Below are positions 1 through 20,032 of a stretch of DNA of 41,418 nucleotides, piece by piece. A model generated the notes under the pieces. It was not told the origin of the DNA and searched no databases. It saw only the letters and a program-made list of their open reading frames with translations. This stretch comes from Bacteroidetes bacterium GWF2_40_14 (GTDB lineage Bacteria > Bacteroidota > Bacteroidia > Bacteroidales > UBA932), in the NCBI GenBank assembly GCA_001769195.1, contig MEOK01000036.1, positions 559 to 41,976 on the forward strand. The letters are read 5' to 3'. The stretch's first letter is position 1. The number at the start of each line of letters is the position of its first letter. Position numbers and translations under genes: made by a program.

Positions 1-255
1 TTTGGCTTGACTTCTCAAATGAGAAGGTCTGCAGTTTCTGTCCCTTCAAATATTGCTGAGGGATATGGGAGGCAGTCAACAGGAAACTATATTCAGTTTC
101 TATCAATAGCAAGAGGGTCCCTGTTAGAATTGGAAACACAGATTGAATTATGTGTAAGGTTGAATTACTTTCAACAAAGTGAATCAGAAGACATTAGAAG
201 CAGAATTAGTGAGATTGGAAAAATGATTTCTTCGTTGATCTTGAAGCTTAGGTAG
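1..255 (+). CDS. Four-helix-bundle protein, S23/IVS type (5' truncated)
   Basis: The reading frame is open from the first base of the window, so the start codon and N-terminus lie upstream; the visible 84 residues are the C-terminal two thirds. The segment LTSQMRRSAVSVPSNIAEGYGR is the signature of the four-helix-bundle family first described from open reading frames in intervening sequences of 23S rRNA and related to the Avd accessory proteins of diversity-generating retroelements. The following ELETQIELCVRLNYF helix also fits. Such proteins are small, probably oligomeric and nucleic-acid binding; their role outside rRNA is unknown. No rRNA, reverse transcriptase or template repeat is visible here. 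The stop TAG is immediately followed by a 7-bp repeat array. Family assignment is confident, function is not. Confidence 0.85.
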   Translation, partial: FGLTSQMRRSAVSVPSNIAEGYGRQSTGNYIQFLSIARGSLLELETQIELCVRLNYFQQSESEDIRSRISEIGKMISSLILKLR

Positions 256-270
256 TGGGCATTAGGCAAG

Positions 271-392
271 AGGCAACAGGCAGTAGGCAATAGGCAATAG
301 TAATAGTATTTTGTAGTGAATAGATAGCAATAATAGATATATGATTCTGAATATTAACATGTTATGCCTCCGTAATTATTTTTCGGATTGCG
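271..392 (+). repeat. Copy 1 of the 126-bp-spaced direct repeat
   Basis: It starts AGGCAACAGGCAGTAGGC and ends TTTTTCGGATTGCG. It is almost identical to 397-518, with a few substitutions. This copy lacks the right arm of the terminal hairpin: the sequence passes straight into the 7-mers that begin copy 2. Confidence 0.9.
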
Positions 393-396
393 CTTT

Positions 397-518
397 AGGC
401 AACAGGCAGTAGGCAATAGGCAATAGTAATAGTATTTTGTAGTGAATAGATAGCAATAATAGATATATGATTCTGAATATTAGCACGTTATGCCTCCGTA
501 GGTATTTTTCGGGTTGCG
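397..518 (+). repeat. Copy 2 of the 126-bp-spaced direct repeat
   Basis: This is the second tandem copy, offset by exactly 126 bp from copy 1. It continues into an intact hairpin at 510-529. A diverged third copy of the internal part lies at 9661-9757, so the unit is a dispersed element and not only a local duplication. Confidence 0.9.
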
Positions 519-529
519 AAAGCAACCCG
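510..529 (+). other. Perfect 8-bp stem with GAAA loop (element terminus)
   Basis: The stem CGGGTTGC pairs with GCAACCCG around a GAAA tetraloop (GNRA type). On the + strand a T-run precedes the hairpin and none follows. On the - strand only A residues follow it. It is therefore not a standard intrinsic terminator in either direction. The same stem with a TTCC loop recurs at 9738-9757. Confidence 0.8.
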
Positions 530-642
530 CCCATTGCCTATTGCCCATTGCCTAATGCCCATTGCCTAATGCCCATTGCCCATTGCCTATTGCCTATTGC
601 CTAATGCCTAATAATGCCTAATGCCTATAAACGCCTAACACC

Positions 643-3618
643 ATGAAAATAACAGACCTAAAGATCGGAACCCAGCTAAAAATCAGCTTTGGCGTCATAC
701 TGATGCTAATTCTGCTGCTTGGATATATATCAGTGAATCATTCAAATGAAATTGCACGTCAAACCAAATACATGTATGAACACCCGTTGAAGGTAAGGAG
801 GGCGCTAGGTGAGTTGAAGGCCGATGTGCTTATCATACACAGATCTATGAAAGATTTGGTTTTGACCACAAATATCGATGAAGCAGAAAATATTATTGAA
901 GAGATAGAAGTTTATAGGGCCAATGCTCATAGTCAATTTGAAATTATATTTAAACAATATCTAGGCCCCAGGTCAGATATCGACTCAGCATACAATAGTT
1001 TTGTTAAATGGAAAGCAATTCGTGATAAAACCATCAGTCTTCAACATGAAGGAAATGTTAATGAGGCTATTAACCGCACAAAACCTAATGGATCCGGAGG
1101 GAAGATTGTAACCAAGCTTATAGATGAGATTGGGGTCATCGACAATTTTGCTAACAATAAAGCAGATCAGTTTTTTAAGAGTGCTTCTGAGTTAAAAGAT
1201 TCTCTTAACAGACAATTGATTATATTGGTTGCCATAATACTGTTATTTACTGTTTTGCTCATATTTATTCTAAGAAAATCAATTAATGGTCCGTTGGCAG
1301 AGCTAACGAATGTTACTCACCTGTTCCGTGAGGGAAAAACCGAGGTGAGAAGCAAGTACAAATCACGTAACGAGTTTGGTCTTCTCTCCTCTTCATTCAA
1401 TGAGCTGGCCGATACCATAGAAACAGAGCTCACGCTTAATTCTCAGACGGCCAAACTTGCCGGAATAATGCTAAGTGAAGACGATGCACATCGTTTCTGT
1501 CACTCTCTTCTCAAAACGCTTATAGAGCATACCGGAGCACAAATGGGAGCAGTCTATCTGCTTAGCGATGAAAAAACCTCTTTTGACCACTTCGAATGCA
1601 TTGGTATGGAAATGGAAGGTTGCAAACCTTTCTCTGCAACAAATTTCGAGGGTGAATTCGGTCCGGCCCTTGCATCTAAAAGGGTATATCATATAACAGA
1701 GATACCAGACGACACGCGCTTTACATTTCTTACTGTAAACGGAGGGTTCAAACCTAAAGAGATAATCACCATCCCGATTGTTACCGGTAACGATACCGCA
1801 GCAGTAATCTCGCTTATCACTATCAAAAAATTCCACAATAACAGCCTTCGTCTCATTGACACAATTCTTAGCACCCTGAGTGCCCGTATGGATGGTGTGC
1901 TTGCATACAAGAAAATACTGAATTTCTCGCAGCAGCTCGAACTGCAGAATCGGGAACTTGAGGCACAGAAAACAGAGCTTTCTGCACAGGCAGATGAACT
2001 GAGCGTACAGAACACAGAACTGGAGATGCAAAAGCAGCAGCTTGACGACTCTAACCGCATGAAGACAGTGTTTCTTTCCAACATGAGTCACGAACTGCGC
2101 ACTCCTCTGAATTCGGTAATTGCGCTCTCAGGCGTGCTTAACCGTCGTCTCAAAGGTATTGTTCCGTCTGAAGAACATGGATACCTAGATGTAATTGAAC
2201 GAAATGGCAAACAGCTCCTTGCCCTCATAAATGATATTCTGGATTTGTCGCGGATAGAAGCCGGAAGGGAAGAGATTGATATCAAAGAGTTCAATCTGGC
2301 AGAATTGGCCAAAGACGTGGTAGAGATGATAGAACCACTAGCTTATCAGAAGAAAATACAACTCAGCTTCAAATCAGGGAAAATGGCACAAAATGTTTGG
2401 AGCGATCCGGAAAAGGTAAGGCATATTATTCAAAATATTGTTGGCAATGCTGTAAAATTTACAGAAGAGGGAACCGTGGAGATCACAACAGAGATTAAAG
2501 AAGATAAAAGCTACATTGTTGTTACAGATACAGGTATTGGTATTGACAAGGAACAACTCCCGCATATTTTTGATGAGTTCCGGCAGGCAGATGGAAGTAA
2601 CTCCAGAAGGTATGGTGGCACAGGTCTTGGCCTTGCTATTGCAAAAAAATATGCTCTTCTGCTTGGAGGCGATATAACCGTAGAGAGTTCACCCGATAAA
2701 GGGTCAAAATTCACATTATGCCTTCCAGTAAACTCAACAGCAGCCAAAACTATTGCAGAGACATTCGAATCCACCCGTTTTACAACTGGACGCAAAACCG
2801 TTCAGATAGCAGATCACTCAATGGAACCAGTAAAAACAATATTGCTTGTAGAAGATTCAGATGCAATAATTGTACAGATGAAGGATATGCTAGAAACAAG
2901 TAATTTCAATATAATGCTTGCACACAATGGCACTGAGGCTCTTGTACAAATTGAAAAGAAAGTACCTGATGCTATGATTCTCGATCTCATGATGCCGGGT
3001 GTAGATGGTTTTGAAGTTCTGAGACGTATAAGAGAAGAGGAAAAAACAAGCCATCTGCCGGTAATAATTCTCACCGCAAAATATGTAACAAAAGAGGAGC
3101 TGGCATTTTTGAAACACAACAGTATCCATCAGATTATACAAAAAGGAGATATCAACAAAGACCAGTTACTCTCAGAGGTCCATAGGATGTTGTATCCAGA
3201 AAATAGTGTGACATTGCCTCACCATGCAATGCCGGTTCACCTCTCCGATATGGAAATCCCGGTTATTCTGGTTGTGGAGGACAATCCCGACAACATGCTT
3301 ACCTTAAAGGCATTATTTAACGGCAAGTTTGTGGTTCTTGAAGCTGAAGATGGTGCAACAGCTATTGAGCTTGCCAAAAAACACAAACCCCATCTGATTC
3401 TGATGGATATTGCACTCCCCGGAATTAATGGTATTGAAGCCCTGAGAGAGATCCGAAGAGATAAAGCTCTGCAGGACACACCTGTAATAGCCGTTTCTGC
3501 TAGCGCAATGAAGGGAGACAAGGAGAATTTCATATCTCTGGGGTTCGATGGATATGTACCAAAACCTATAGATAACAATGTATTTTCACGTGTGATAAAG
3601 GAGTGGCTTTCTAGTTAG
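643..3618 (+). CDS. Membrane hybrid sensor histidine kinase, HAMP-GAF-HisKA-HATPase-REC-REC
   Basis: This 991-residue protein is a membrane sensor that passes phosphate along an internal phosphorelay. A first membrane helix lies at about residues 12-32, a four-helix-bundle periplasmic sensor at 33-190, and a second helix at about 191-211. HAMP follows at about 212-262, GAF at about 285-415 and a coiled coil at about 420-462. The kinase core shows H483 in [12 protein letters not shown], the N-box N602, D629 in DTGIGI, and GGTGLGL at 658-664. Two receiver domains follow, with phospho-acceptors D781 (LDLMMPG) and D922 (MDIALPG). The first receiver ends in an atypical QKGD where KP is usual. No DNA-binding output is present, so the partner is unknown. 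ATG 643 gives the complete first helix. The TAG stop coincides with the start of the next 7-mer array. Confidence 0.93.
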
Positions 3619-3850
3619 GCAATAGGCAATAGGCAATAGGCAATAGGCAGTAGGCATTGGGCAGTAGGCAATTGGGCAATTGGCAATTGGCAATTGGCAT
3701 TAGGCAATAGGCAGTAGGCATTGGGCATTAGGCAGTAGGCAATTGGCAATTGGCATTAGGCAATAGGCATTGGGCATTAGGCAGTAGGCAGTAGGCAGTA
3801 GGCAATTGGCAATAGGCAATAGGCAGTAGGCAGTAGGCAGTAGGCAATAG
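3616..3850 (+). repeat. Direct array of degenerate GGCANTA 7-mers
   Basis: About 235 bp of near-continuous 7-mers (GGCAATA, GGCAGTA, GGCATTA, GGCAATT, GGCATTG), with occasional 8-bp spacing where an extra G occurs. The first unit includes the TAG stop codon of the preceding kinase. Together with 3851-3945 it accounts for the whole gap of more than 300 bp; no gene is seen in it. Confidence 0.92.
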
Positions 3851-3866
3851 TAATAGTATTTAGTAA

Positions 3867-3945
3867 TTAGCACATTAACACATTAGCACATTAACACATT
3901 AGCACATTAGCACATTAGCACATTAACACATTAGCACATTAACAC
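3867..3945 (+). repeat. Octamer array (ACATTAGC / ACATTAAC) ending at a start codon
   Basis: About ten direct 8-bp units alternate between ACATTAGC and ACATTAAC. They are joined to the 7-mer array by a linker reading TAATAGTATTTAGTAATTAG. The array runs without a break into the ATG at 3946, so no Shine-Dalgarno-like sequence separates repeat from gene. Confidence 0.9.
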
Positions 3946-5886
3946 ATGACAAAGATTCTCGCTATAGACGATAGGAACGACAACCTGATAAGTTTAAGAG
4001 CCATCATAAAAGATGCTTTTCCAGATTTTGTTGTCTATTCTGCATTGACTGGAAGAGAAGGAATCGAAATAGCACTATCAGAAAATCCCGATGTCATTAT
4101 TCTGGATATTTTCATGCCCGTTATGGACGGGTTTGAGGTATGTAGAAGACTCAAACATGATGATAGAATTAGTGATATCCCTGTAATTTTCCTTACAGCG
4201 GCCAAGGGCGAAAGAGATAACCGGATAAAAGCATTGGAGATAGGCGCAGAGGCTTTTCTTACAAAACCGATTGATGAGACCGAACTAATTGCCCAGATTC
4301 GGGCAATGGTAAAGATTAAAGCTGCATGTGAACATAAGAAGGGAGAGAAAGAAAGACTGGAGGAACTAGTTGCAGAACGCACCAAAAAACTTGAACAAAG
4401 TCAGATAGCTCTCGGAGAAAGTGAAGAACGATTTGTCCATCTTTTCGAAAGAGCCCCTCTGGGTTATCAGTCACTTGATGAAAATGGTGTCTTGATTGAG
4501 GTTAACGAAGCTTGGCTTGATACATTGGGATATGCAAAAGAGGAGGTTGTCGGCAAATGGTTTGGAGATTTTGTGGCTCCCGATTTTGTAGGTGCTTTTA
4601 GTGAACGCTTCCCTCTTTTTAAAGCGCAGGGATTCATTCATTCAGAATTTGAGATGCTACACAAGAACGGGAAAATCAGATTCATTGCTTTTGACGGGCG
4701 TGTAGGACACAAACATGATGGCAGTTTCGAAAAAACCCATTGTATTCTTCAGGATATTACAGAACAAAAAGCGATTGAAAAGAAGGTGAAACTTCTTGCT
4801 CACTCGCTGGAAAGTATTAGTGAATGTGTCTCCATTACAGACACGAATGACATACTACTTTATGTGAACGAGGCTTTCACAAGAATCTATGGATATTCCG
4901 AAAGTGAATTGATTGGCAAGCATATAAAAATGCTTAGGCCCAAAGATTCTGAATCCGGCTATTCAAAAAAGGTTCTTGATGAAACTATGGATGGGGGCTG
5001 GAGCGGGGAATTAATCAACATGAAAAAAGACGGGACACTTTTTCCTATACTTCTCTCTACCTCAATCATCAAAGACGACAATAAAGATTCAGTCGCACTC
5101 ATAGGCGTGGCCAGAGATATATCGGAAATGAAGAAAAAAAACGAAGAGTTACTGGCCGCTAAAAAAAGAGCAGAGGAGAGCGACCGCCTTAAGACAGCCT
5201 TCCTTCATAACATATCTCACGAAATACGGACGCCAATGAATGCAATTGTTGGGTTTGCAGAATTACTCAACGACCCTGATTTGCTCCCTGAGGAGAGTAA
5301 AAGTTACACTGACATAATAGTCAGGAGCAGTAATCAGCTTCTCTCAATTATAACCGACATTGTAAGTATTGCTACCATTGAGGCAGGTCAGGAAAAAATA
5401 GTGGAACGGGTGGTTAACGTAAATTCAATCTGCAGACTGGTATACGAACAATTTCAGTTGAAAGCAGAAAAACAAAACATCTCTTTAAAATATGAGACAT
5501 CTATTCCTGAATGCAATTCCATAATAATGACAGATGAGACCAAATTGCTTCAGATTCTTACAAACCTTATAAGCAATGCAATCAAATTTACAAAAGATGG
5601 ATCGGTTCATTTCGGGTGTGAGCTAAAAAACTACAATCTTGAATTTTTTGTAAAAGATACCGGGATTGGAATTCCTCTTGATAAACAAGATGATATATTC
5701 AAGCGCTTCCGACAATTGGAAAATGCTGAGAATAGGAAATTTGGCGGATCGGGTTTAGGTTTATCCATTTCAAAAACATACGTGGAGCTTCTTGGTGGCA
5801 GCATGTGGGTCGAGTCTCAACCCGGCAAGGGATCTAAGTTTTACTTTACCATACCGTATTTGGAGGCGTTAGGCATTGGGCATTAG
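3946..5886 (+). CDS. REC-PAS-PAS-HisKA-HATPase sensor kinase
   Basis: This is a soluble 646-residue kinase with an N-terminal receiver domain (phospho-acceptor D54 in ILDIFMPVMDG, KP motif in FLTKPID). A short coiled coil (EELVAERTKKLEQ) and two PAS domains follow, at about 160-275 and 285-400. HisKA carries H425 in HNISHEIRTPMN. The ATPase domain has the motifs NLISNAIKFT, DTGIGI and GGSGLGLS. The input is probably phosphate from another kinase plus a cytoplasmic signal. The receiver is a close paralogue of the gene at 6002, and the kinase core of the gene at 10424. The C-terminus is odd: after the normal family end near FTIPY, the last residues EALGIGH and the TAG stop are encoded by the 7-mer repeat. 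The start sits at the end of an octamer array. Confidence 0.93.
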   Translation: MTKILAIDDRNDNLISLRAIIKDAFPDFVVYSALTGREGIEIALSENPDVIILDIFMPVMDGFEVCRRLKHDDRISDIPVIFLTAAKGERDNRIKALEIGAEAFLTKPIDETELIAQIRAMVKIKAACEHKKGEKERLEELVAERTKKLEQSQIALGESEERFVHLFERAPLGYQSLDENGVLIEVNEAWLDTLGYAKEEVVGKWFGDFVAPDFVGAFSERFPLFKAQGFIHSEFEMLHKNGKIRFIAFDGRVGHKHDGSFEKTHCILQDITEQKAIEKKVKLLAHSLESISECVSITDTNDILLYVNEAFTRIYGYSESELIGKHIKMLRPKDSESGYSKKVLDETMDGGWSGELINMKKDGTLFPILLSTSIIKDDNKDSVALIGVARDISEMKKKNEELLAAKKRAEESDRLKTAFLHNISHEIRTPMNAIVGFAELLNDPDLLPEESKSYTDIIVRSSNQLLSIITDIVSIATIEAGQEKIVERVVNVNSICRLVYEQFQLKAEKQNISLKYETSIPECNSIIMTDETKLLQILTNLISNAIKFTKDGSVHFGCELKNYNLEFFVKDTGIGIPLDKQDDIFKRFRQLENAENRKFGGSGLGLSISKTYVELLGGSMWVESQPGKGSKFYFTIPYLEALGIGH

Positions 5887-6001
5887 GCAATAGGCATTAG
5901 GCATTGGGCAATAGGCAATTGGCAATAGTATTTAGTAATTAGCAAATTAGCACATTAGCACATTAGCAAATTAGCACATTAGCAAATTAACAAATTAACA
6001 C
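5869..6001 (+). repeat. Composite 7-mer / linker / 8-mer repeat spanning a gene junction
   Basis: 7-mers of GGCATTA/GGCAATA type run from inside the 3' end of the preceding CDS to about 5927. The linker TAGTATTTAGTAATTAGC follows, then octamers (ACATTAGC, AAATTAGC, AAATTAAC) up to the ATG at 6002. Order and orientation match 3616-3945. It fills the whole gap and also overlaps 18 coding bases. Confidence 0.9.
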
Positions 6002-7384
6002 ATGACAAAAATTCTGGCAATTGATGATAAAAGTGACAATCTTATAAGCTTGAAGGCGATACTTAAAGATGCTTTTCCTGATTCTGCCGTTTTTGCAGCC
6101 TTAACCGGCCAAAGTGGAATCGATCTGGCATTATCGGAAGAGCCCGATGTGATTCTTCTGGATATATTAATGCCCGACATGGATGGCTTTGATGTATGTA
6201 GAAAACTTAAACTGGATGAGCGTTTATGTGATATTCCTGTTGTATTCCTGACAGCAGAGAAGGGTGACAGGAATCAACGTATCAAGGCTTTGGAGGCTGG
6301 AGGGGAAGGGTTTCTCTCCAAACCGATAGATGAACCCGAGCTTATTGCTCAAGTAAGAGCAATGTTCAAAATCAAGGCAGCCAACGAACTTAAGAAAACA
6401 GAAAATGACCTGCTGGCAAAATTAGTAGCAGAGCGAACAAGAGAGCTGAGAGAGAGTGAACTCTACTTCCGTACACTGGCAAATTCCGGACAACATCTTA
6501 TCTGGACCTCAGGAACAGACAAGATGTGCAACTATTTCAACATTCCATGGCTGGAATTTACCGGAAGGACAATGGAACAGGAGCTTGGTGATGGCTGGAC
6601 AGAGGGGGTTCATCCTAAAGACCTGCAAAAATGTGTAGAGACCTATGTGAATGCGTTTGATACGCGTGAAAAATTTTCTATGGAGTACAGAGTTCATCAC
6701 AACAGCGGAGAGTATCGTTGGATACAGGACGATGGCACACCCCGGTATAACAATGATGGTGTGTTTATTGGGTATATCGGACACTGTCTCGACATAACCC
6801 ACATCAAACTTGCCGAGGAAGAACTTAAAAGAAGTGATTTCCTTTTGAATAGAGTATTTGACCTGCTGCCTATAGGGCTATGGCTTGCAGACAACACTGG
6901 CAGGCTTACAAGGGGCAACCCGGCCGGAATAGATATCTGGGGTGCAGAACCTACTGTTCCTTTCGAAGAGTACGGAATATTCAAAGCTCGCCGACTTCCT
7001 TCAGGGGAAGAGATTGCTGCAGATGACTGGGCACTTGCACATACAATAAAGGAGGGTAAAACAATACGGGACGAACTGCTGGAGATTGATGCATTTGATG
7101 GCCGAAAGAAAATCATTCTCAACTATACCTCTCCCGTATTTGACGATAATGGTCAGATGCTTGGTGCCATTGTAGTTAACAATGATATTACTAAACTTAA
7201 GCAATCGGAATACGAGATTATAAAATTAAAGGACGAACTGGAGATAAAAGTAGAGGAGAAAACACGGGAACTTAAAGAACGGGTTGCAGAATTAGAGCGG
7301 TTTCATGAAGCAACAATCGACCGGGAATTACGTATGAAAGAGCTGAGAGATGAAATTGAAAAACTGAAAAATGACAAACTATAA
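6002..7384 (+). CDS. REC-PAS-PAS coiled-coil protein without kinase domain
   Basis: This is a 460-residue soluble signalling protein. The receiver (D54 in LLDILMPDMDG, SKPID motif) is very similar to that of the gene at 3946, including the first residues MTKILAIDD. Two PAS domains follow at about 150-270 and 280-400; the first is PAS_3-like, with YRWIQDDGTPRY and GHCLDIT. The protein ends in a charged coiled coil at about 405-460. No HisKA, HATPase, GGDEF or DNA-binding domain follows. The stop lies 14 bp inside the next gene, so the two are probably translationally coupled and may act together, for example as a phosphate-gated adaptor for that kinase. The start is chosen by homology with the paralogue. 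The missing output may be natural or the result of a past deletion. Confidence 0.9.
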   Translation: MTKILAIDDKSDNLISLKAILKDAFPDSAVFAALTGQSGIDLALSEEPDVILLDILMPDMDGFDVCRKLKLDERLCDIPVVFLTAEKGDRNQRIKALEAGGEGFLSKPIDEPELIAQVRAMFKIKAANELKKTENDLLAKLVAERTRELRESELYFRTLANSGQHLIWTSGTDKMCNYFNIPWLEFTGRTMEQELGDGWTEGVHPKDLQKCVETYVNAFDTREKFSMEYRVHHNSGEYRWIQDDGTPRYNNDGVFIGYIGHCLDITHIKLAEEELKRSDFLLNRVFDLLPIGLWLADNTGRLTRGNPAGIDIWGAEPTVPFEEYGIFKARRLPSGEEIAADDWALAHTIKEGKTIRDELLEIDAFDGRKKIILNYTSPVFDDNGQMLGAIVVNNDITKLKQSEYEIIKLKDELEIKVEEKTRELKERVAELERFHEATIDRELRMKELRDEIEKLKNDKL

Positions 7385-9563
7385 AATAAAATATATATTA
7401 CTTACGTTAATTTGCGGAATTGCTTTTAGTCTGTCTGCTAATCCTGTTTATGTTGTTGTGAACATTCCTGCAGCAGATATTGCTATAATAAGAACTATAA
7501 CAGTAGCATCGGAACCCGACTATCCCCCATTCTGTATAATCGACAAGAGTGGCAAGGCTGACGGATTCTCAATAGACCTTATAAAAGCTGCTGCCAAAGC
7601 TGCAAATTTAAAAATTGCTATAAAAATTGGCATCTGGAACGTTATAAAACAGGATCTTGAAAACGGAACAATTGATGTTTTACCCTTAGTTGGCAGAACA
7701 CCTGAACGCGAACTGATTTACGATTTTTCTCTCCCCTATATAACTCTGCATGGTGCTGTCTTTGTCAGAAGAGGCACCACAGATATCAAGTCTGTTGCAG
7801 ATTTGAAAAGTAAGTCCATAATTGTGATGAGGGGAGACAATGCCGAGGAGTATGCGCGTAGAAATAATATTTCTGCTAATATTGTCACAACCAATACATT
7901 CGAAGAGGCTTTCCGTATGTTGGCTTCAGGGTTGCACGATGCAGTAATTACGCAACGGGTCATGGGTATAGAACTTCTTAAAGCCTCCGGGATAAAATCA
8001 ATAAAGCCGCTTGATCTTCAATTAAACGAATTCCGTCAAGACTTTTGTTTCGCTGTCAGGAAAGGGGACATAAAATTGCTGGCAAAGTTAAACGAGGGGC
8101 TCTCAATAATAATTGCAAACAAAACATTCGACGATATTCACCTTAAATGGTTCGGTCCAACCCTAAAGGAAAAATTATCTCCATATGACATAATCAAGAT
8201 TGTTCTGTATACGTTAATCCCTCTTCTGATACTCTTCTTTAGCGCTTACACTCTCTTATTAAGAAGAGAGGTGAAAAGAAAGACAAAAAGTCTGCAACAG
8301 GAAGTTTTGGAGCATGCAATGGCAGCAACTGCTCTTAAAAACCAGCAGTTGCTACTTGCAGAAATGGAAAAAGGGACAAAGGTTGGAGGCTGGGAATACG
8401 ATGTGGCAAAAAAAGAATTTACATGGACAAATGGCGTTTATGCAATCTATGGCATATCGCCGTCAGAATATAATATAAAGGGAAAAATTAAATATGGTCC
8501 GGCCAGACTATATCACCCGGAAGACCAGAAAATTCTTGACATGGCCTTCCAACATGCTTTAAATGAGGGTAAGTCCTATGATCTTACATTAAGGCTGAAC
8601 TCCTTTGACGGTAAATTCAAATGGGTGAGGACTGCCGGTAATTCTGTGTTGAGGGAGGGACAGGTTGTCAGGATTATTGGCAATATTATTGATATCACAG
8701 AACAAAAAGAGACCGAGGCAGATCTGAGAAAACTAAAAGACGATCTTGACAAATTAGTAGAAGAGCGTACCCGAGAGCTAAACGAGAAGGTCCGGAAACT
8801 AGCCAAGAGTCAGAAAGCTATGCTATATATGGTTGAGGATCTCAACGCTGTATCTGCAGAACTTAAGCTAGAGCATCAAAAGATGGAGGCTGCAAACCGA
8901 GAGCTCGAGGCTTTCAGTTATTCGGTATCACATGACCTCCGCGCCCCTCTGAGAGCTTTGGCCGGTTTTGCAAGAATATTGCAGGAAGACTACTCTAAAT
9001 CGCTTGATAACGAGGGCAATCGTATTTTGGAGGTAATTGTAGACAATGCCAAAAAAATGGGCACACTAATAGATGATTTGCTCTCATTTTCACGACTCAG
9101 CCGACAGGAGATAAAGCTTTCATTGATTGACATGCATGGTCTGGCAAAATCGGTTTTTGACGAGTTAGTAACAGAAGCCGATAAAGAAAAGATTGAATTT
9201 ACGTTACATGAATTGCCCGAAGCTATGGGCGACCCTGCAATTGTGAGACAAGTATGGATCAACCTTATTGGTAATGCCATTAAGTTCACATCCACAAAAC
9301 CTATACGTATTATTGAAGTTGGATTTTTTCCACGAGAAAACGAGATTGTCTATTTTGTAAAAGACAATGGTGTTGGTTTCGATATGGCCTACAGAAACAA
9401 ATTGTTCGGCGTTTTTCAACGTCTCCACAATGTTAAGGAATTTGATGGCACGGGGGTTGGTCTTGCAATAGTTCAACGGATAATTCTCCGTCTTAACGGG
9501 CAAGTGTGGGCCGAGGGAAAAGTCAACAAGGGGGCAGAATTTTATTTTACGTTGGGGAAGTAG
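7371..9563 (+). CDS. Periplasmic-binding-domain sensor kinase (SBP_bac_3-TM-PAS-HisKA-HATPase)
   Basis: This is a 730-residue membrane kinase. A signal or membrane segment lies at about 7-24. A family 3 solute-binding domain follows at about 40-262, with [13 protein letters not shown] and [12 protein letters not shown] typical of amino-acid-binding proteins. A membrane helix spans about 268-291, then PAS_3 at about 330-445 and a long coiled coil. The HisKA is of bacteriophytochrome type with H521 in [14 protein letters not shown], and the ATPase shows [16 protein letters not shown] and GTGVGLA. It probably senses a small periplasmic metabolite; the ligand cannot be read from the sequence. It overlaps the REC-PAS-PAS gene by 14 bp. 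The downstream Rcp1-like regulator at 9835 is the natural phosphate acceptor for this kinase type. The TAG stop is the first 7-mer of the following array. Confidence 0.92.
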
Positions 9564-9652
9564 GCAATAGGCAATGGGCAATGGGCAATAGGCATTAGGC
9601 AATAGGCAACAGGGGTTGGGATTGGGCAACAGGCAATAGGCATTAGGCAACA
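9561..9652 (+). repeat. Direct 7-mer array after the SBP-kinase gene
   Basis: Degenerate GGCAATA, GGCAATG, GGCATTA and GGCAACA units begin with the stop codon of the preceding gene. They form the left flank of a dispersed element whose right flank carries the same units inverted. Confidence 0.88.
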
Positions 9653-9660
9653 GAGTTTGG

Positions 9661-9757
9661 TATTTTGTAGTGAATAGATAATATTAATAGATATATAGTT
9701 TTGATTATTTGTGCGTTATACCTCCGCGAATATTTTTCGGGTTGCTTCCGCAACCCG
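9661..9757 (+). repeat. Third, diverged copy of the hairpin-ended element
   Basis: It begins TATTTTGTAGTGAATAGATA, identical to the units at 271-392 and 397-518, and then diverges while keeping the CCTCCG and TATTTTTCGG blocks. It ends in a perfect hairpin at 9738-9757 with the same stem (CGGGTTGC/GCAACCCG) but a TTCC loop instead of GAAA. Conservation of the stem with a changed loop suggests the structure matters. Confidence 0.85.
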
Positions 9758-9832
9758 CCCATTGCCCATTGCCCATTGCCTATTGCCCATTGCCCATTGC
9801 CCATTGCCTAATGCCCATTGCCTAATGCCCAT
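9758..9832 (-). repeat. Inverted 7-mer array before the response-regulator gene
   Basis: Units CCATTGC, CTATTGC and CTAATGC are the reverse complement of the array at 9561-9652. They continue to within a few bases of the start codon at 9835. The two flanks can pair, so the gap in a kinase-regulator transcript could fold into a long imperfect stem. Confidence 0.88.
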
Positions 9833-9834
9833 TA

Positions 9835-10290
9835 ATGCCTAAAAAAATGAATACAACCAATTTAGTGGAAATTCTTTTGATCGAAGACAATCCAAACGAT
9901 GTAGAGCTCACACTGCGGGCTCTTAGAAAGAACAATCTTGCAAACAACATTCATGTTGTAAACGATGGAGCGGAAGCGCTCGACTACTTTTTTGCTACCG
10001 GCAAATATCATGACAGAGATATTAGCTTAACCCCCAAATTGGTAATTCTAGATCTCAAGCTCCCAAAAATTGATGGTATTGAGATTCTGCGCATTATTAA
10101 AAATGATGCCAGGACCAAGAGTATTCCGGTAGTTGTTCTGACATCATCAAAAGAGGAGAGCGATATTATTGCCAGTTACAAGATGGGTGCCAACAGTTTT
10201 ATTGTTAAACCGGTAGATTTTGATAAATTTATTGTCACAGTGAGAGAGCTGGGTATGTACTGGCTGTTGCTTAACGAACCCCCGAGGTAA
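9835..10290 (+). CDS. Rcp1-like single-domain response regulator
   Basis: This 151-residue stand-alone receiver domain starts [18 protein letters not shown], with acidic residues and the NDVELT pattern typical of the Rcp1 family that accepts phosphate from phytochrome-type kinases. The phospho-acceptor is D73 ([12 protein letters not shown]), the Thr/Ser motif is VVLTSS and the Lys motif is IVKPVDFD. There is no output domain, so it either relays phosphate or acts through protein contacts. The gene directly follows a kinase with a phytochrome-type HisKA, a common pairing. The ATG at 9835 gives MPKKMN; a second ATG at 9847 is possible, and the first lies at the edge of the inverted 7-mer array. 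Confidence 0.9.
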
Positions 10291-10420
10291 TTTGTTAATG
10301 TGCTAATTTGCTAATGTGCTAATGTGCTAATTACTAAATACTCCTACTATTGCCTAATGCCTAATGCCTATTGCCCAATGCCCAATGCCTATTGCCCAAT
10401 GCCTATTGCCTAAAATACCT
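10291..10420 (-). repeat. Inverted composite repeat: octamers, linker, 7-mers
   Basis: Read on the + strand, it starts with octamers (TGTGCTAA, TTTGCTAA), passes through TTACTAAATACTCCTACTA, and ends in 7-mers (CTATTGC, CTAATGC, CCAATGC). This is the reverse complement of the module order at 3616-3945 and 5869-6001. The module therefore has a polarity and can occur in either orientation between genes. Confidence 0.88.
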
Positions 10421-10423
10421 AAC

Positions 10424-11926
10424 ATGCCTATATCCCAAAAATTAAAAATCCTCATGGTGGAGGATTTACAGACTGACGCTGAGCTAATTAAGCGAGAAAT
10501 CACCAGAAGCGGTATCCGGTTTACAAGTCGGATAGTAGAGACCAAGGAAGATTATTTGAATGCTTTACAAGAGTTCGATCCGGATATAATTCTTTCCGAT
10601 TTCTCTTTGCCAACTTTTGATGGCATGCAGGCAATTTTACTCCAACAAGAATTGGCCAACCATGTACCGTTCATACTTGTCACTGGTTCGATCAATGAAG
10701 AGACAGCTGTTGAAGTAATGAAGGCCGGTGCCGATGATTATGTGATTAAAGAACATCTTACACGTCTGGGGGCAGCTATAAGGGCGGCGATCCAAAAGAA
10801 GGAGATAATTCGCCTTAGAATTGAGGCAGATGAAAAGCTCAGGGTTTTTTCACGCGCAATTGAGCAAAGCCCTTCATCAATCATAATTACTGACGCAGAA
10901 GGTAAAATTCAATTTGTCAATGCAAAATTTACAAATTTCATGCAATATTCCCTTGATGAGGTTAAGGGAAAGACACCTCGTATTTTAAACCCCGGTCATG
11001 CCAGCAAAGAGGAGTTCGAAGGGATGTGGGAAACAATTAAAAACCGAAATACATGGCATGGTGAGTTCAATAATCGCAAAAAGGACGGGACTAAATTCTG
11101 GGAGAATGTAATCATTTCACCTTTGCTTTTCCATTCAGGTAATATCAGCAATTTCATTCTGATAATGGAAGACATTACAGAGAAGAAAAAAATGATTGAC
11201 GATCTGGTGATAGCCAAGGAGAAGGCAGAGGAGAATGACCGGCTTAAAACAGCTTTTCTCCATAACATCTCTCATGAAATTCGCACTCCAATGAATGCAA
11301 TTGTGGGGTTTTGTGACCTTCTTAATGACCCCGAACTTAAACCAGATGAATACAAGCATTATACAGAAATTATCACTCAAAGCAGTCATCAGCTGCTTTC
11401 TATTATTACCGATATTGTCAACCTTTCGACTATCGAGGCCGGACAAGAGAGAATCATGGCTAATAACTTAAACGTAAACTCAATCTGCAGTTATGTGTAT
11501 GAGCAATTCATCCTTAAAGTAGAACATAAGGGTATTGAAATAAGTTACAATACATCTTTGCCTGATAATGAGGCTACCATAATTTCAGACGAAACAAAAC
11601 TTACACAGGTTCTAACAAACCTTTTAAGCAATGCTGTCAAATTTACCAACCTCGGCTCAATAGAATTTGGTTATTTGTTCAAAAACGACACCCTTGAATT
11701 TTATGTCACGGATAGCGGAATTGGAATACCTGAAGAAAAACACGATGAGATTTTTAAACGTTTCTATCAGATTGACCGGTCGGAAAACCGCCAATATGGG
11801 GGTTCGGGATTAGGCCTGTCAATTTCAAAAACATATATCGAACTGTTAGGGGGAAAGATATGGCTCACGTCGGAAGCAGGCAAAGGGACTACATTTTATT
11901 TTAACATTCCGTATAATAGGCAATAG
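10424..11926 (+). CDS. REC-PAS-HisKA-HATPase sensor kinase
   Basis: This is a 500-residue soluble kinase: receiver at about 8-125 (D59 in ILSDFSLPTFDG), one PAS at about 140-255, HisKA with H284 in HNISHEIRTPMN, and an ATPase with NLLSNAVKFT, DSGIGI and GGSGLGLS. The receiver ends VIKEHL, not the usual KP, as in kinase-associated receivers. The kinase core closely matches that of the gene at 3946 (shared ITDIV, STIEAGQE and LNVNSIC blocks). The frame stays open for 60 bases upstream, but those codons (MPIAQCPMPIAQC) are translated 7-mer repeat, so ATG 10424 is preferred. The C-terminus after FNIPY is NRQ plus TAG, again supplied by the 7-mer repeat. Confidence 0.92.
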   Translation: MPISQKLKILMVEDLQTDAELIKREITRSGIRFTSRIVETKEDYLNALQEFDPDIILSDFSLPTFDGMQAILLQQELANHVPFILVTGSINEETAVEVMKAGADDYVIKEHLTRLGAAIRAAIQKKEIIRLRIEADEKLRVFSRAIEQSPSSIIITDAEGKIQFVNAKFTNFMQYSLDEVKGKTPRILNPGHASKEEFEGMWETIKNRNTWHGEFNNRKKDGTKFWENVIISPLLFHSGNISNFILIMEDITEKKKMIDDLVIAKEKAEENDRLKTAFLHNISHEIRTPMNAIVGFCDLLNDPELKPDEYKHYTEIITQSSHQLLSIITDIVNLSTIEAGQERIMANNLNVNSICSYVYEQFILKVEHKGIEISYNTSLPDNEATIISDETKLTQVLTNLLSNAVKFTNLGSIEFGYLFKNDTLEFYVTDSGIGIPEEKHDEIFKRFYQIDRSENRQYGGSGLGLSISKTYIELLGGKIWLTSEAGKGTTFYFNIPYNRQ

Positions 11927-12024
11927 GCATTAGGCAATAGGCATTAGGCATTGGGCAATTGAATTATATTACTATTTTTGCCCCCCATTAGCACATTAGC
12001 AAATTAGCACATTAACCCATTAAC
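11916..12024 (+). repeat. Forward composite repeat before the small membrane protein
   Basis: 7-mers (AGGCAAT, AGGCATT) start inside the 3' end of the kinase gene. A divergent linker with a run of six C follows, then octamers (ATTAGCAC, AAATTAGC, ATTAACCC) end at ATG 12025. The linker differs from the other modules, but the order is the same. Confidence 0.85.
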
Positions 12025-12678
12025 ATGACCTACGGAACAATACTCTGGACAGGAATCTTAGCAGCGGTCGCAACATTTCTCATTATCCCGGAAACACACC
12101 ACATTTTTGTGTCAGCAACAAATGCACATCCCTACCTTATGGGGTTCGTGAAATTCGCAATTCTCTCAATCATGGGGGAATACTTAGCCAATAGGCTGGT
12201 TCATAAAAAATGGGTAATGGTAAATGGAGTGTTTGTTAAGATGATGATTTGGGGAATCCTGGGAGTAATGATTGTCCTTATGTTCTCTATTCTCTCTCAA
12301 GGAGTTCAGGGAGCCATAGGTAAAGGGGTGCTTCATGTGGGTGACACATGGGCATCGCCGGTTATTCGGGCATTTTACATATCGGCAATAATGAACCTGA
12401 CCTTTGCACCAGTATTTATGGCAACCCATCGCATAACAGATACTTACATAGATGCATATACTGCCGGCAAAAGAATGTCGGTGCAAAATGTTATCTCCTC
12501 TGTAGAGTGGCCAGGTTTTATGAGTTTTGTAATTGGAAAAACAATTCCATTTTTCTGGATACCGGCACATACAATCACCTTCCTCCTACCCGACGAATAC
12601 AAAGTGATTTTTGCGGCCTCTCTTTCAATAGTTCTTGGATTGATCCTCTCTTACGCAAAGCTCCAGAAAACAGTTTGA
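12025..12678 (+). CDS. Multi-pass inner-membrane protein of unknown function
   Basis: This is a 217-residue hydrophobic protein with about five or six predicted membrane helices, at roughly 5-24, 38-57, 69-92, 113-136, 162-184 and 188-212. The C-terminal pattern FFWIPAHTITFLLPDEYKV followed by a final helix loosely recalls Mpv17/PMP22 family proteins, but the likeness is too weak to name it. No enzymatic motif is visible. It is preceded by an octamer array like those before two kinase genes and followed by an ordinary non-repeat gap, so it marks the right edge of the repeat-bearing cluster. The start is taken as the ATG at the end of the array; it gives a clean first helix. Confidence 0.8.
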   Translation: MTYGTILWTGILAAVATFLIIPETHHIFVSATNAHPYLMGFVKFAILSIMGEYLANRLVHKKWVMVNGVFVKMMIWGILGVMIVLMFSILSQGVQGAIGKGVLHVGDTWASPVIRAFYISAIMNLTFAPVFMATHRITDTYIDAYTAGKRMSVQNVISSVEWPGFMSFVIGKTIPFFWIPAHTITFLLPDEYKVIFAASLSIVLGLILSYAKLQKTV

Positions 12679-19014: not shown

Positions 19015-19157
19015 AATAGATCGAATCAGAGGTATTATTGCAATATACAAAAAAAATACCTTAGTGTCACATTGAAGTAGTTTTCAGGGATCCATCGCTT
19101 TATGAATGAGCGCTATAGCCTGTCATCCACAATAGAATAGATCTTGTTCGCACTTAT

Positions 19158-19260
19158 AGCCTATTGCCTATTGCCCAATGCCCATTGCCTATTGCCCATT
19201 GCCCAATGCCAATTGCCTATTGCCCATTGCCTAATGCCTATTGCCTATTGCCTATTGCCT
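19158..19260 (-). repeat. 7-mer array downstream of the peptidase C26-like gene
   Basis: About 14 degenerate units (CTATTGC, CCATTGC, CCAATGC, CTAATGC on the + strand) read as GGCAATA-type repeats in the orientation of the - strand gene, as at the 3' ends of the + strand kinase genes. The array overlaps the last codons and stop of that gene. It lies about 7 kb from the other arrays. Confidence 0.9.
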
Positions 19261-20032
19261 CCTCCACCAGATATTTGAATATACCCAGAAATGTATCAAT
19301 GTCGTTTGCTGTAAATACCTCCGGATGGAACTGCACTCCAAATACCTTGGAGCTTCCTATCTTTTCAATCGCTTCTACTATACCGTCTTTCGAGCGGGCA
19401 GTTACCTTGAAGCCCGGGGCCACAAATTTAACCGCCTGATGATGAAATGAATTGGTGGCAACACTGTCCAGACCAATCTGCTTGTACAGTAATGAACCGG
19501 TTTCAATCATCACAGAATGTGTTCCGTAATATCCAGGAGCTTTCTGCATGTGCTTTACATAAGTTCCTTTCACCTGCGAAGGAATATCCTGATAAAGACT
19601 GCCTCCGAATGCCACGTTCATCAGTTGTTCTCCCCTGCAGATACCGAGTACAGGAAGTCCTTTGGCCACTGCCATTCTTATAAGAGTGATGTCGAAAAGG
19701 TCGCGTTCAGGAATAACTTCTCCCAGAGCCGGATGTGGCTCCTCTCCAAACCATTTTAGCGGATCTATATCCTCTCCACCTGTCATGATAACAGCATCCA
19801 CTGTCTCCAGCATCCTTGCTATCAGTTGAGGATCGTCAGTAACAGGAAGCACAACAGGAACGCCACCTGCCCTCATGACAGATTTTACATAGTTTAACGG
19901 AGCAGATGTGGCAATGCCACCTCCCCAGGTAGATGAAATGCCGATAATCGGTTTTTTAGAACTCTTCTGTGGCTGCGCAAACGTTACTACGGTTACAAGG
20001 AGTATCATAATTAGAGTAAGAAATTTTTTCAT
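19238..20032 (-). CDS. Exported peptidase C26-type (PuuD-like) gamma-glutamyl hydrolase
   Basis: This is a 264-residue class I glutamine amidotransferase-fold hydrolase of the family that includes gamma-glutamyl-GABA hydrolase PuuD. The N-terminus is a signal peptide (hydrophobic residues 4-17, cleavage near FAQ), unlike cytoplasmic PuuD, so it probably acts in the periplasm on gamma-glutamyl compounds. The catalytic triad is visible: C132 in GICRGEQ, H236 and E238 in VQFHPE. The TGGEDIDP motif also fits. The substrate is not determinable. The last residues (AIGNRQ) and the TAG stop are encoded by the 7-mer repeat, replacing the natural end. A TATATTTG box lies 23 bp upstream of the start. 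Confidence 0.88.

Follow-up and report, generated by a model that had tools for sequence, protein, structure and literature searches.

Heptamer and octamer arrays in a Bacteroidales genome are probably the arms of small elements encoding the 23S intervening-sequence protein

The 23S rRNA of Coxiella burnetii carries an intervening sequence (IVS) in which tandem heptamers (two or three, depending on the strain) precede an S23 open reading frame (ORF), and which has a 28-bp terminal stem and is excised by RNase III (PMC4990558). The S23 protein is a homopentamer, and its family is described as being without a known role (PMC4990558). Here, we analyse a stretch of 41,418 nucleotides from Bacteroidetes bacterium GWF2_40_14 (contig MEOK01000036.1, positions 559 to 41,976; referred to as the window), in which several genes are separated by arrays of seven- and eight-base repeats. 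We read these arrays as the probable arms, and in part gene-less remnants, of a small selfish element coding for IVP/S23 and related to the 23S IVS. The best explanation is that relatives of the 23S IVS were placed between the protein genes of operons, with a stem built of repeats.

Intergenic heptamer arrays are also known from Cyanobacteria, Xanthomonas and Beggiatoaceae, where they have no accepted function (PMC4692102, PMC4679880). The GGGNATC and GGGGA(C/T)T heptamers of Xanthomonas and Nostoc lie between aligned ORFs and some overlap stop codons; they are placed in sense no more than 50 bp from a stop codon, or in antisense up to 50 bp upstream of an ORF, and four units are preferred (PMC4692102). 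Unlike the arrays described here, they are read as G-quadruplexes and reported to be generally not tied to mobile elements. Neither S23 nor four helix is a term used in the main text of that paper. TAACTGA repeats are found in Beggiatoaceae, Cyanobacteria and Bacteroidetes with a patchy distribution (PMC4679880). They resemble the present arrays in being intergenic heptamers, many of them near start codons, and in including Bacteroidetes, but their unit is another one and they are read as possible sites of a translational regulator. A literature search over titles, abstracts and passages, with subscription journals thinly covered, returned no link between inverted heptamer arrays and IVP/S23 genes outside rRNA.

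The window opens inside an IVP gene. Positions 1..255 (plus strand, as are all features below unless stated) encode the 3' part of an IVP/S23 four-helix protein, 84 residues and the stop codon (PF05635, the 23S IVP/S23 four-helix family, 4.8e-30; TIGR02436, 1.2e-30). The arrays that follow belong to two families. In family A, the left arms are (GGCANTA)n and the right arms (TANTGCC)n, while family B, named after an octamer-flanked IVP gene on contig C34 (L002), has (TAATGTGC)n as left and (ATTAGCAC)n as right arms. Directly after the IVP stop stands an A left arm (258..300), followed by a non-repeated core (299..395) that opens with the leader AGTAATAGTATTTTGTA, similar to the leader before IVP gene copies. 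A 126-bp direct duplication (271-518) then gives a second A left arm (396..426) and a second core copy (425..528) with a small hairpin CGGGTTGC..GCAACCCG, before the A right arm, (TATTGCC)n at 529..628, ends 14 nt before a kinase start at 643. A gene-less element of the same build, i.e., an inverted pair of A arms (9561-9650 and 9757-9833) around a non-repeated core, occupies 9561..9833 between the gene 7371-9563 and the response regulator 9835-10290, and forms one long hairpin.

Three further gaps combine an A left arm with a B right arm. In the gap 3616-3947, the first TAG of the left arm (3616..3850) is the stop codon of the gene 643-3618, a leader stands at 3849, and the octamers of the right arm (3866..3947) continue into the start codon at 3946. 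In 5864-6003, the left arm (5864..5928) holds the last codons and the stop of the gene 3946-5886 and the right arm (5937..6003) continues into the start codon at 6002. The third, 11915..12022 (A left 11915-11959, B right 11986-12022), precedes the gene 12025-12678. The reverse combination is found at 10288..10413, where a B left arm (10288-10331) starts at the stop TAA and is followed by an A right arm (10347-10413). The last array is an A left arm on the minus strand (19155..19260), which encodes the C-terminal ..IGNRQ and the stop of the C26-peptidase gene 19238-20032. On our reading, the left arms of the window are sited at stop codons, with the inner duplicate 396-426 as exception, and the right arms ahead of start codons. 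The siting reported for the GGGNATC-type heptamers is what such left and right arms predict.

A sequence-only reading of the window had placed heptamer and octamer arrays in six gaps between genes, and Tandem Repeats Finder finds them in all six. That reading was too narrow in two respects: one more heptamer array stands at 19155-19260, outside the region 256-12024 which it covered, and the arrays are not confined to the gaps but often overlap gene ends, usually with the stop codon in phase. In the 3.36-Mb genome the pattern (GGCANYR)x3 has 237 matches, of which 36 + 33 = 69 are in the window, and the same pattern read backwards has 0; for the octamer pattern it is 24 against 0. The genome-wide array segments referred to below are those in the fetched genome stretches, at least 42 segments of which at least 36 are heptamers (A). 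Out of 42 segments, 23 have a left-arm position, 6 a right-arm position, 7 fit both and 6 neither. Among 24 left A arms (every segment compatible with the left position, whether or not the right one fits too; an array in two pieces counts once) the stop codon of the host gene is in phase with the TAG of the repeat in 20, by our own count. The units have a conserved GGCA core and variable positions 5-7, with G at position 7 in 106/406 units; this sample included loci of other organisms and its seed demanded GGCA, so it describes the general unit shape only.

The genome has two IVP loci. One is the start of contig C36, where three tandem IVP pieces (C36:1-790) are present, the last being the gene of the window; N runs in the scaffold make the copy number there uncertain. 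The two truncated IVP copies at this contig start (L022:1-700) pass straight into heptamer arrays. The other locus, C34:13152, has octamer arrays on both sides of the IVP gene and lies between genes read by eye as hydrogenase subunits. The IVP proteins P0001, L064 and L002 pass the PF05635/TIGR02436 cut-offs, which concerns the IVP-bearing copies only. A profile search of solved structures gave 2gsc and 2rld, five chains each. A leader, AGTRRTAGTATTT after GGCAAT, is common to two IVP copies and five gene-less arrays (36 A segments fetched). IVP was not found among 50,697 phage records at E 1e-5.

Across bacteria, many IVP genes are flanked by tandem repeats with a period of 7 or 8, and reverse-complementing the unit upstream of the gene often gives the unit downstream of it. 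We scored 76 loci from a first sample of 80 in named genomes (the best 80 of 559, 4 of which were too near a contig end), with mechanically called ORFs from the same loci as controls. An inverted-flank score of at least 14 is reached by 53/76 IVP loci compared with 20/502 other ORFs and 39/400 mismatched left/right pairs. Tandem runs of at least 14 are found on both sides in 26/76 against 7/502, and on at least one side in 46/76 against 52/502. Inverted arms accompany IVP genes of many phyla. In a second sample, drawn from the order to which the window's genome belongs, 13/20 loci had inverted flanks against 12/400 mismatched pairs (30 fetched; 10 dropped, of which 9 for lack of a recognised motif and 1 for being too short); in it, the IVP ORF was chosen by motif, not individually checked, and is possibly wrong at L204.

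The arms themselves are regular in period and position, while their units vary widely from locus to locus. A left arm was found at 42/76 and a right arm at 44/76 loci, and 85/86 of these have period 7 or 8 although 5-11 was allowed. A same-strand ORF stops between about 60 nt before the array and its end in 36/42 left arms (within 15 nt of the array start in 30/42), and a same-strand ORF starts within 90 nt in 38/44 right arms. Both neighbours are co-directional with the IVP gene at 53/64 loci, compared with 226/391 control ORFs. Stop codons in all frames are not supported as the cause of period 7 or 8, as the left-arm unit holds a stop in 23/42 and the shuffled expectation is 0.43.

Twenty plasmid records carry IVP; the ten fetched are all cyanobacterial, six of them two-armed and four with a left arm only, judged by eye. 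In two of the plasmids, the IVP element lies in a CRISPR-Cas operon, flanked by cas6 and cas4 in Anabaena sp. 90 (L137) and by cas10 and a cmr3-type gene in Picosynechococcus PCC 7003 (L144). Two related Nostoc plasmids (L136 and L143) carry corresponding IVP elements whose right arms differ by a single heptamer. At L029, L205 and L218, a succinate dehydrogenase subunit gene seemingly follows the IVP element (translation by eye), and this gene is a possible preferred site.

Occupied and empty sites exist between species. In Bosea sp. OK403, a complete element of about 455 bp lies between nuoC and nuoD (translation by eye). In 61 genomes of the genus Bosea, 60 nuoC-nuoD junctions are readable: 21 are empty (3-15 nt), 3 hold the element, and 36 hold other sequence (239-736 nt; these lie among L128-L135 and L146-L175). 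The three occupied junctions were recognised by their arms, two of them being L099 and L103 of the IVP sample, and in all three the left arm starts at the nuoC stop codon. The other sequence is mostly about 440 nt long, and the roughly 95 nt inspected at each end are without arms; this spot may accept unrelated inserts.

For three array-bearing gene pairs of the window's genome, we compared 17 relative loci in 12 genomes of the same genus, where the two genes adjoin with no array in between. These loci were selected for co-located matches and do not give a rate of order conservation. The comparison shows the arrays as apparent additions to old gene pairs. At L013, the gap is 69 nt here and 6-28 nt in the relatives; at L021, the protein ends in ..IGNRQ here and in ..KPLQ, ..SPLQ or ..APLQ in the relatives. 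For the L018 pair, only the second gene is among the matches listed in the relatives.

Structurally, the paired arms fold well. The region 250-645 forms one long hairpin of -157.3 kcal/mol (z -11.4), and 9540-9845 reaches -132.9 kcal/mol (z -8.7), with 0/100 shuffles as good. The IVP elements of Bosea and Nostoc also form long hairpins (z -5.1 and -6.9). No Rfam family scores above its gathering score within the window and there is no rRNA match. The IVP copies examined lie between protein genes, not in an rRNA helix.

We suggest that a complete element consists of a left arm, the leader, the IVP gene and a right arm. Both arms repeat one 7- or 8-mer in tandem, the right arm inverted relative to the left, and can pair in the transcript as a hairpin stem. 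The element is oriented with transcription and sited where a gene ends; the left arm often supplies the stop codon, and the right arm stops close to the following start codon. As in the 23S IVS, RNase III could cut the stem out of the mRNA, and life between genes would therefore be nearly harmless. The pentameric IVP ring may act on the repeats, new copies would arise by copying into gene ends, and slippage would alter the length of the arrays; the presence of an array at a junction would be a gain rather than a loss.

The likeness to the 23S IVS (PMC4990558) includes the name of the protein family (S23p there, and PF05635 here, which stands for the 23S IVP), a length of about 430 nt, complementary stem ends, heptamers just before the ORF and a sporadic distribution. 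However, known IVSs lie in rRNA helices, while the elements here are found at stop codons between protein genes, build both arms from 7- or 8-mers and include gene-less copies. To our knowledge, no transposase is known for this element. In REPIN/MITE-type non-autonomous elements, gene-less hairpin copies stand beside few gene-bearing ones. The same is seen here, but the ends are tandem 7- or 8-mers and not one palindrome. There is a weak similarity between the Bosea IVP and bAvd of diversity-generating retroelements (PF22296, 2.3e-07, 31.7 bits, below the cut-off of 40; NF033474, 3.8e-05, also below cut-off). However, the second IVP of the genome (L002) matches neither profile, bAvd is not among the matches of the structure search, and reverse transcriptase PF00078 has 0 matches in the genome (97.5% complete; the control was positive in 3/14 genomes). 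Copying by a resident reverse transcriptase, as in diversity-generating retroelements, is therefore unsupported.

Several observations weigh against this explanation. Most arrays are without the gene, as two IVP loci stand against 36 fetched heptamer segments, and by exact pattern the leader is found at only 5/34 arrays that do not precede an IVP copy. Arrays of the same periods are also found away from IVP genes, as the 52/502 control ORFs show, and among the 42 array segments 6 fit neither arm position and 7 fit both. Complementary, stem-forming ends are present at the paired arms, but at the threshold 23/76 IVP loci lack them, and 7/20 loci of the second sample fail the same inverted-flank test. 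The one-sided region 3600-3950 lacks them as well and folds no better than shuffles (z 0.3), so excision of a hairpin cannot apply there. Some arrivals are not clean insertions: at L010, the upstream protein has lost about 10 residues in length compared with its relatives and ends in repeat-coded residues, and at L006 (2409-2443, contig C3) in-frame heptamers lie within a glycosyltransferase gene, in a loop variable in length and sequence (12 residues here, 9-21 in nine relatives). No array was seen to be present in one genome and absent from another of the same species. Our confidence is held down by the leader being at only five gene-less arrays, by the junctions having been picked for adjacency and by GGG in some A units.

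The arrays could instead be plain simple-sequence repeats that grew by slippage in unconstrained intergenic DNA, with the IVP gene as a passenger settling there. Slippage has been proposed for heptamers in the literature (cited in PMC4679880 and PMC4692102), and the one-heptamer difference between the two Nostoc plasmids, the long one-sided arrays and the arrays beside non-IVP genes all agree with such an origin. We nevertheless consider it unlikely, given the same unit inverted on both sides of IVP genes, the polarity of the arms to stop and start codons, the leader common to some arrays and the same junctions being without arrays in relatives. Even less can be said for G-quadruplexes of the kind proposed for the GGGNATC heptamers of Xanthomonas and Nostoc. 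In their favour, those repeats are reported to prefer four units and to lie in sense at stop codons (PMC4692102), and GGCANTG units of this genome do yield GGG tracts. However, GGCANTA units and octamers do not, and units without G tracts (TTAGTCA, AAGTTTCA, ATTAGCAC) occupy the same places, which makes this very improbable.

Two further explanations start from the genes of the window. The sequence-only reading tied the arrays to sensory genes, and the dense cluster around kinases could be taken as binding arrays for a regulator of these genes, as could the constant GGCA and variable positions 5-7 (in the mixed, GGCA-seeded sample). The tie does not extend over the genome. The 20 array-neighbour genes outside the window include no sensor kinase or response regulator according to Pfam, so the tie looks like a local cluster; their Pfam matches are mixed, including YcsF/carboxyltransferase, CDP-alcohol transferase, an HlyD-type exporter, aldehyde ferredoxin oxidoreductase, MFS, MlaD, KDO transferase, GHMP kinase, radical SAM and others. 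As the units also change between genomes, regulator arrays are hardly credible. The sensory genes themselves have only distant relatives at scattered places (52% at best for the first kinase), with five candidates per genome scored in most genomes.

The same reading saw the genes as cassettes shuffled by recombination between repeats, which has one displaced gene in its favour. The gene 12025-12678 (217 residues) adjoins the C26-peptidase gene in G021, and coordinates place the two side by side in at least 10 other relatives. Here it is about 7 kb away, with arrays both at the old place (19155-19260) and before the new one (11915-12022). But the two genes are also apart, by coordinates, in G001, G015 and G023, and raised stability has been reported near similar heptamers (PMC4692102). 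The cassette model is mostly not right, because array neighbours are mixed and old pairs adjoin without arrays in the 17 selected relative loci, and we regard it as improbable; the reading is partly supported, its mobile flavour being right.

Among 118 genomes (own included), 8 are heptamer-bearing, and an IVP match is present in 7/8 of these compared with 49/110 others. One of the eight (G054) has 1 match against 10 in the backward control, and another (G019) has 1 match and is without IVP. The co-occurrence is weak because the pattern detects one repeat family only. In G036, from the same family, many GGCAGTR array matches fall in the first 700 bases of a contig, which suggests that such arrays break metagenome assemblies and hence are under-counted.

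Linking the arrays to S23 gives both a testable identity, the arrays being the arms of S23 elements. The link predicts where arrays lie, their orientation and a unit common to both flanks. It also carries a warning for annotation: C-termini such as ..IGNRQ are element sequence, and ORFs of the MPIAYCLLP type are probably so too. More widely, and only tentatively, we can imagine a widespread class of mobile elements without a transposase, consisting of an IVP ring protein and inverted arms of 7- or 8-mers and copied in sense into gene ends. Such a class might be the common source of many heptamer families (the GGCANTA repeats of Bacteroidota, those of Cyanobacteria and of Xanthomonas), and the 23S IVS would be its one special case, an element that came to rest in rRNA. 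The link could explain several of the unexplained seven-base repeat families in bacteria.

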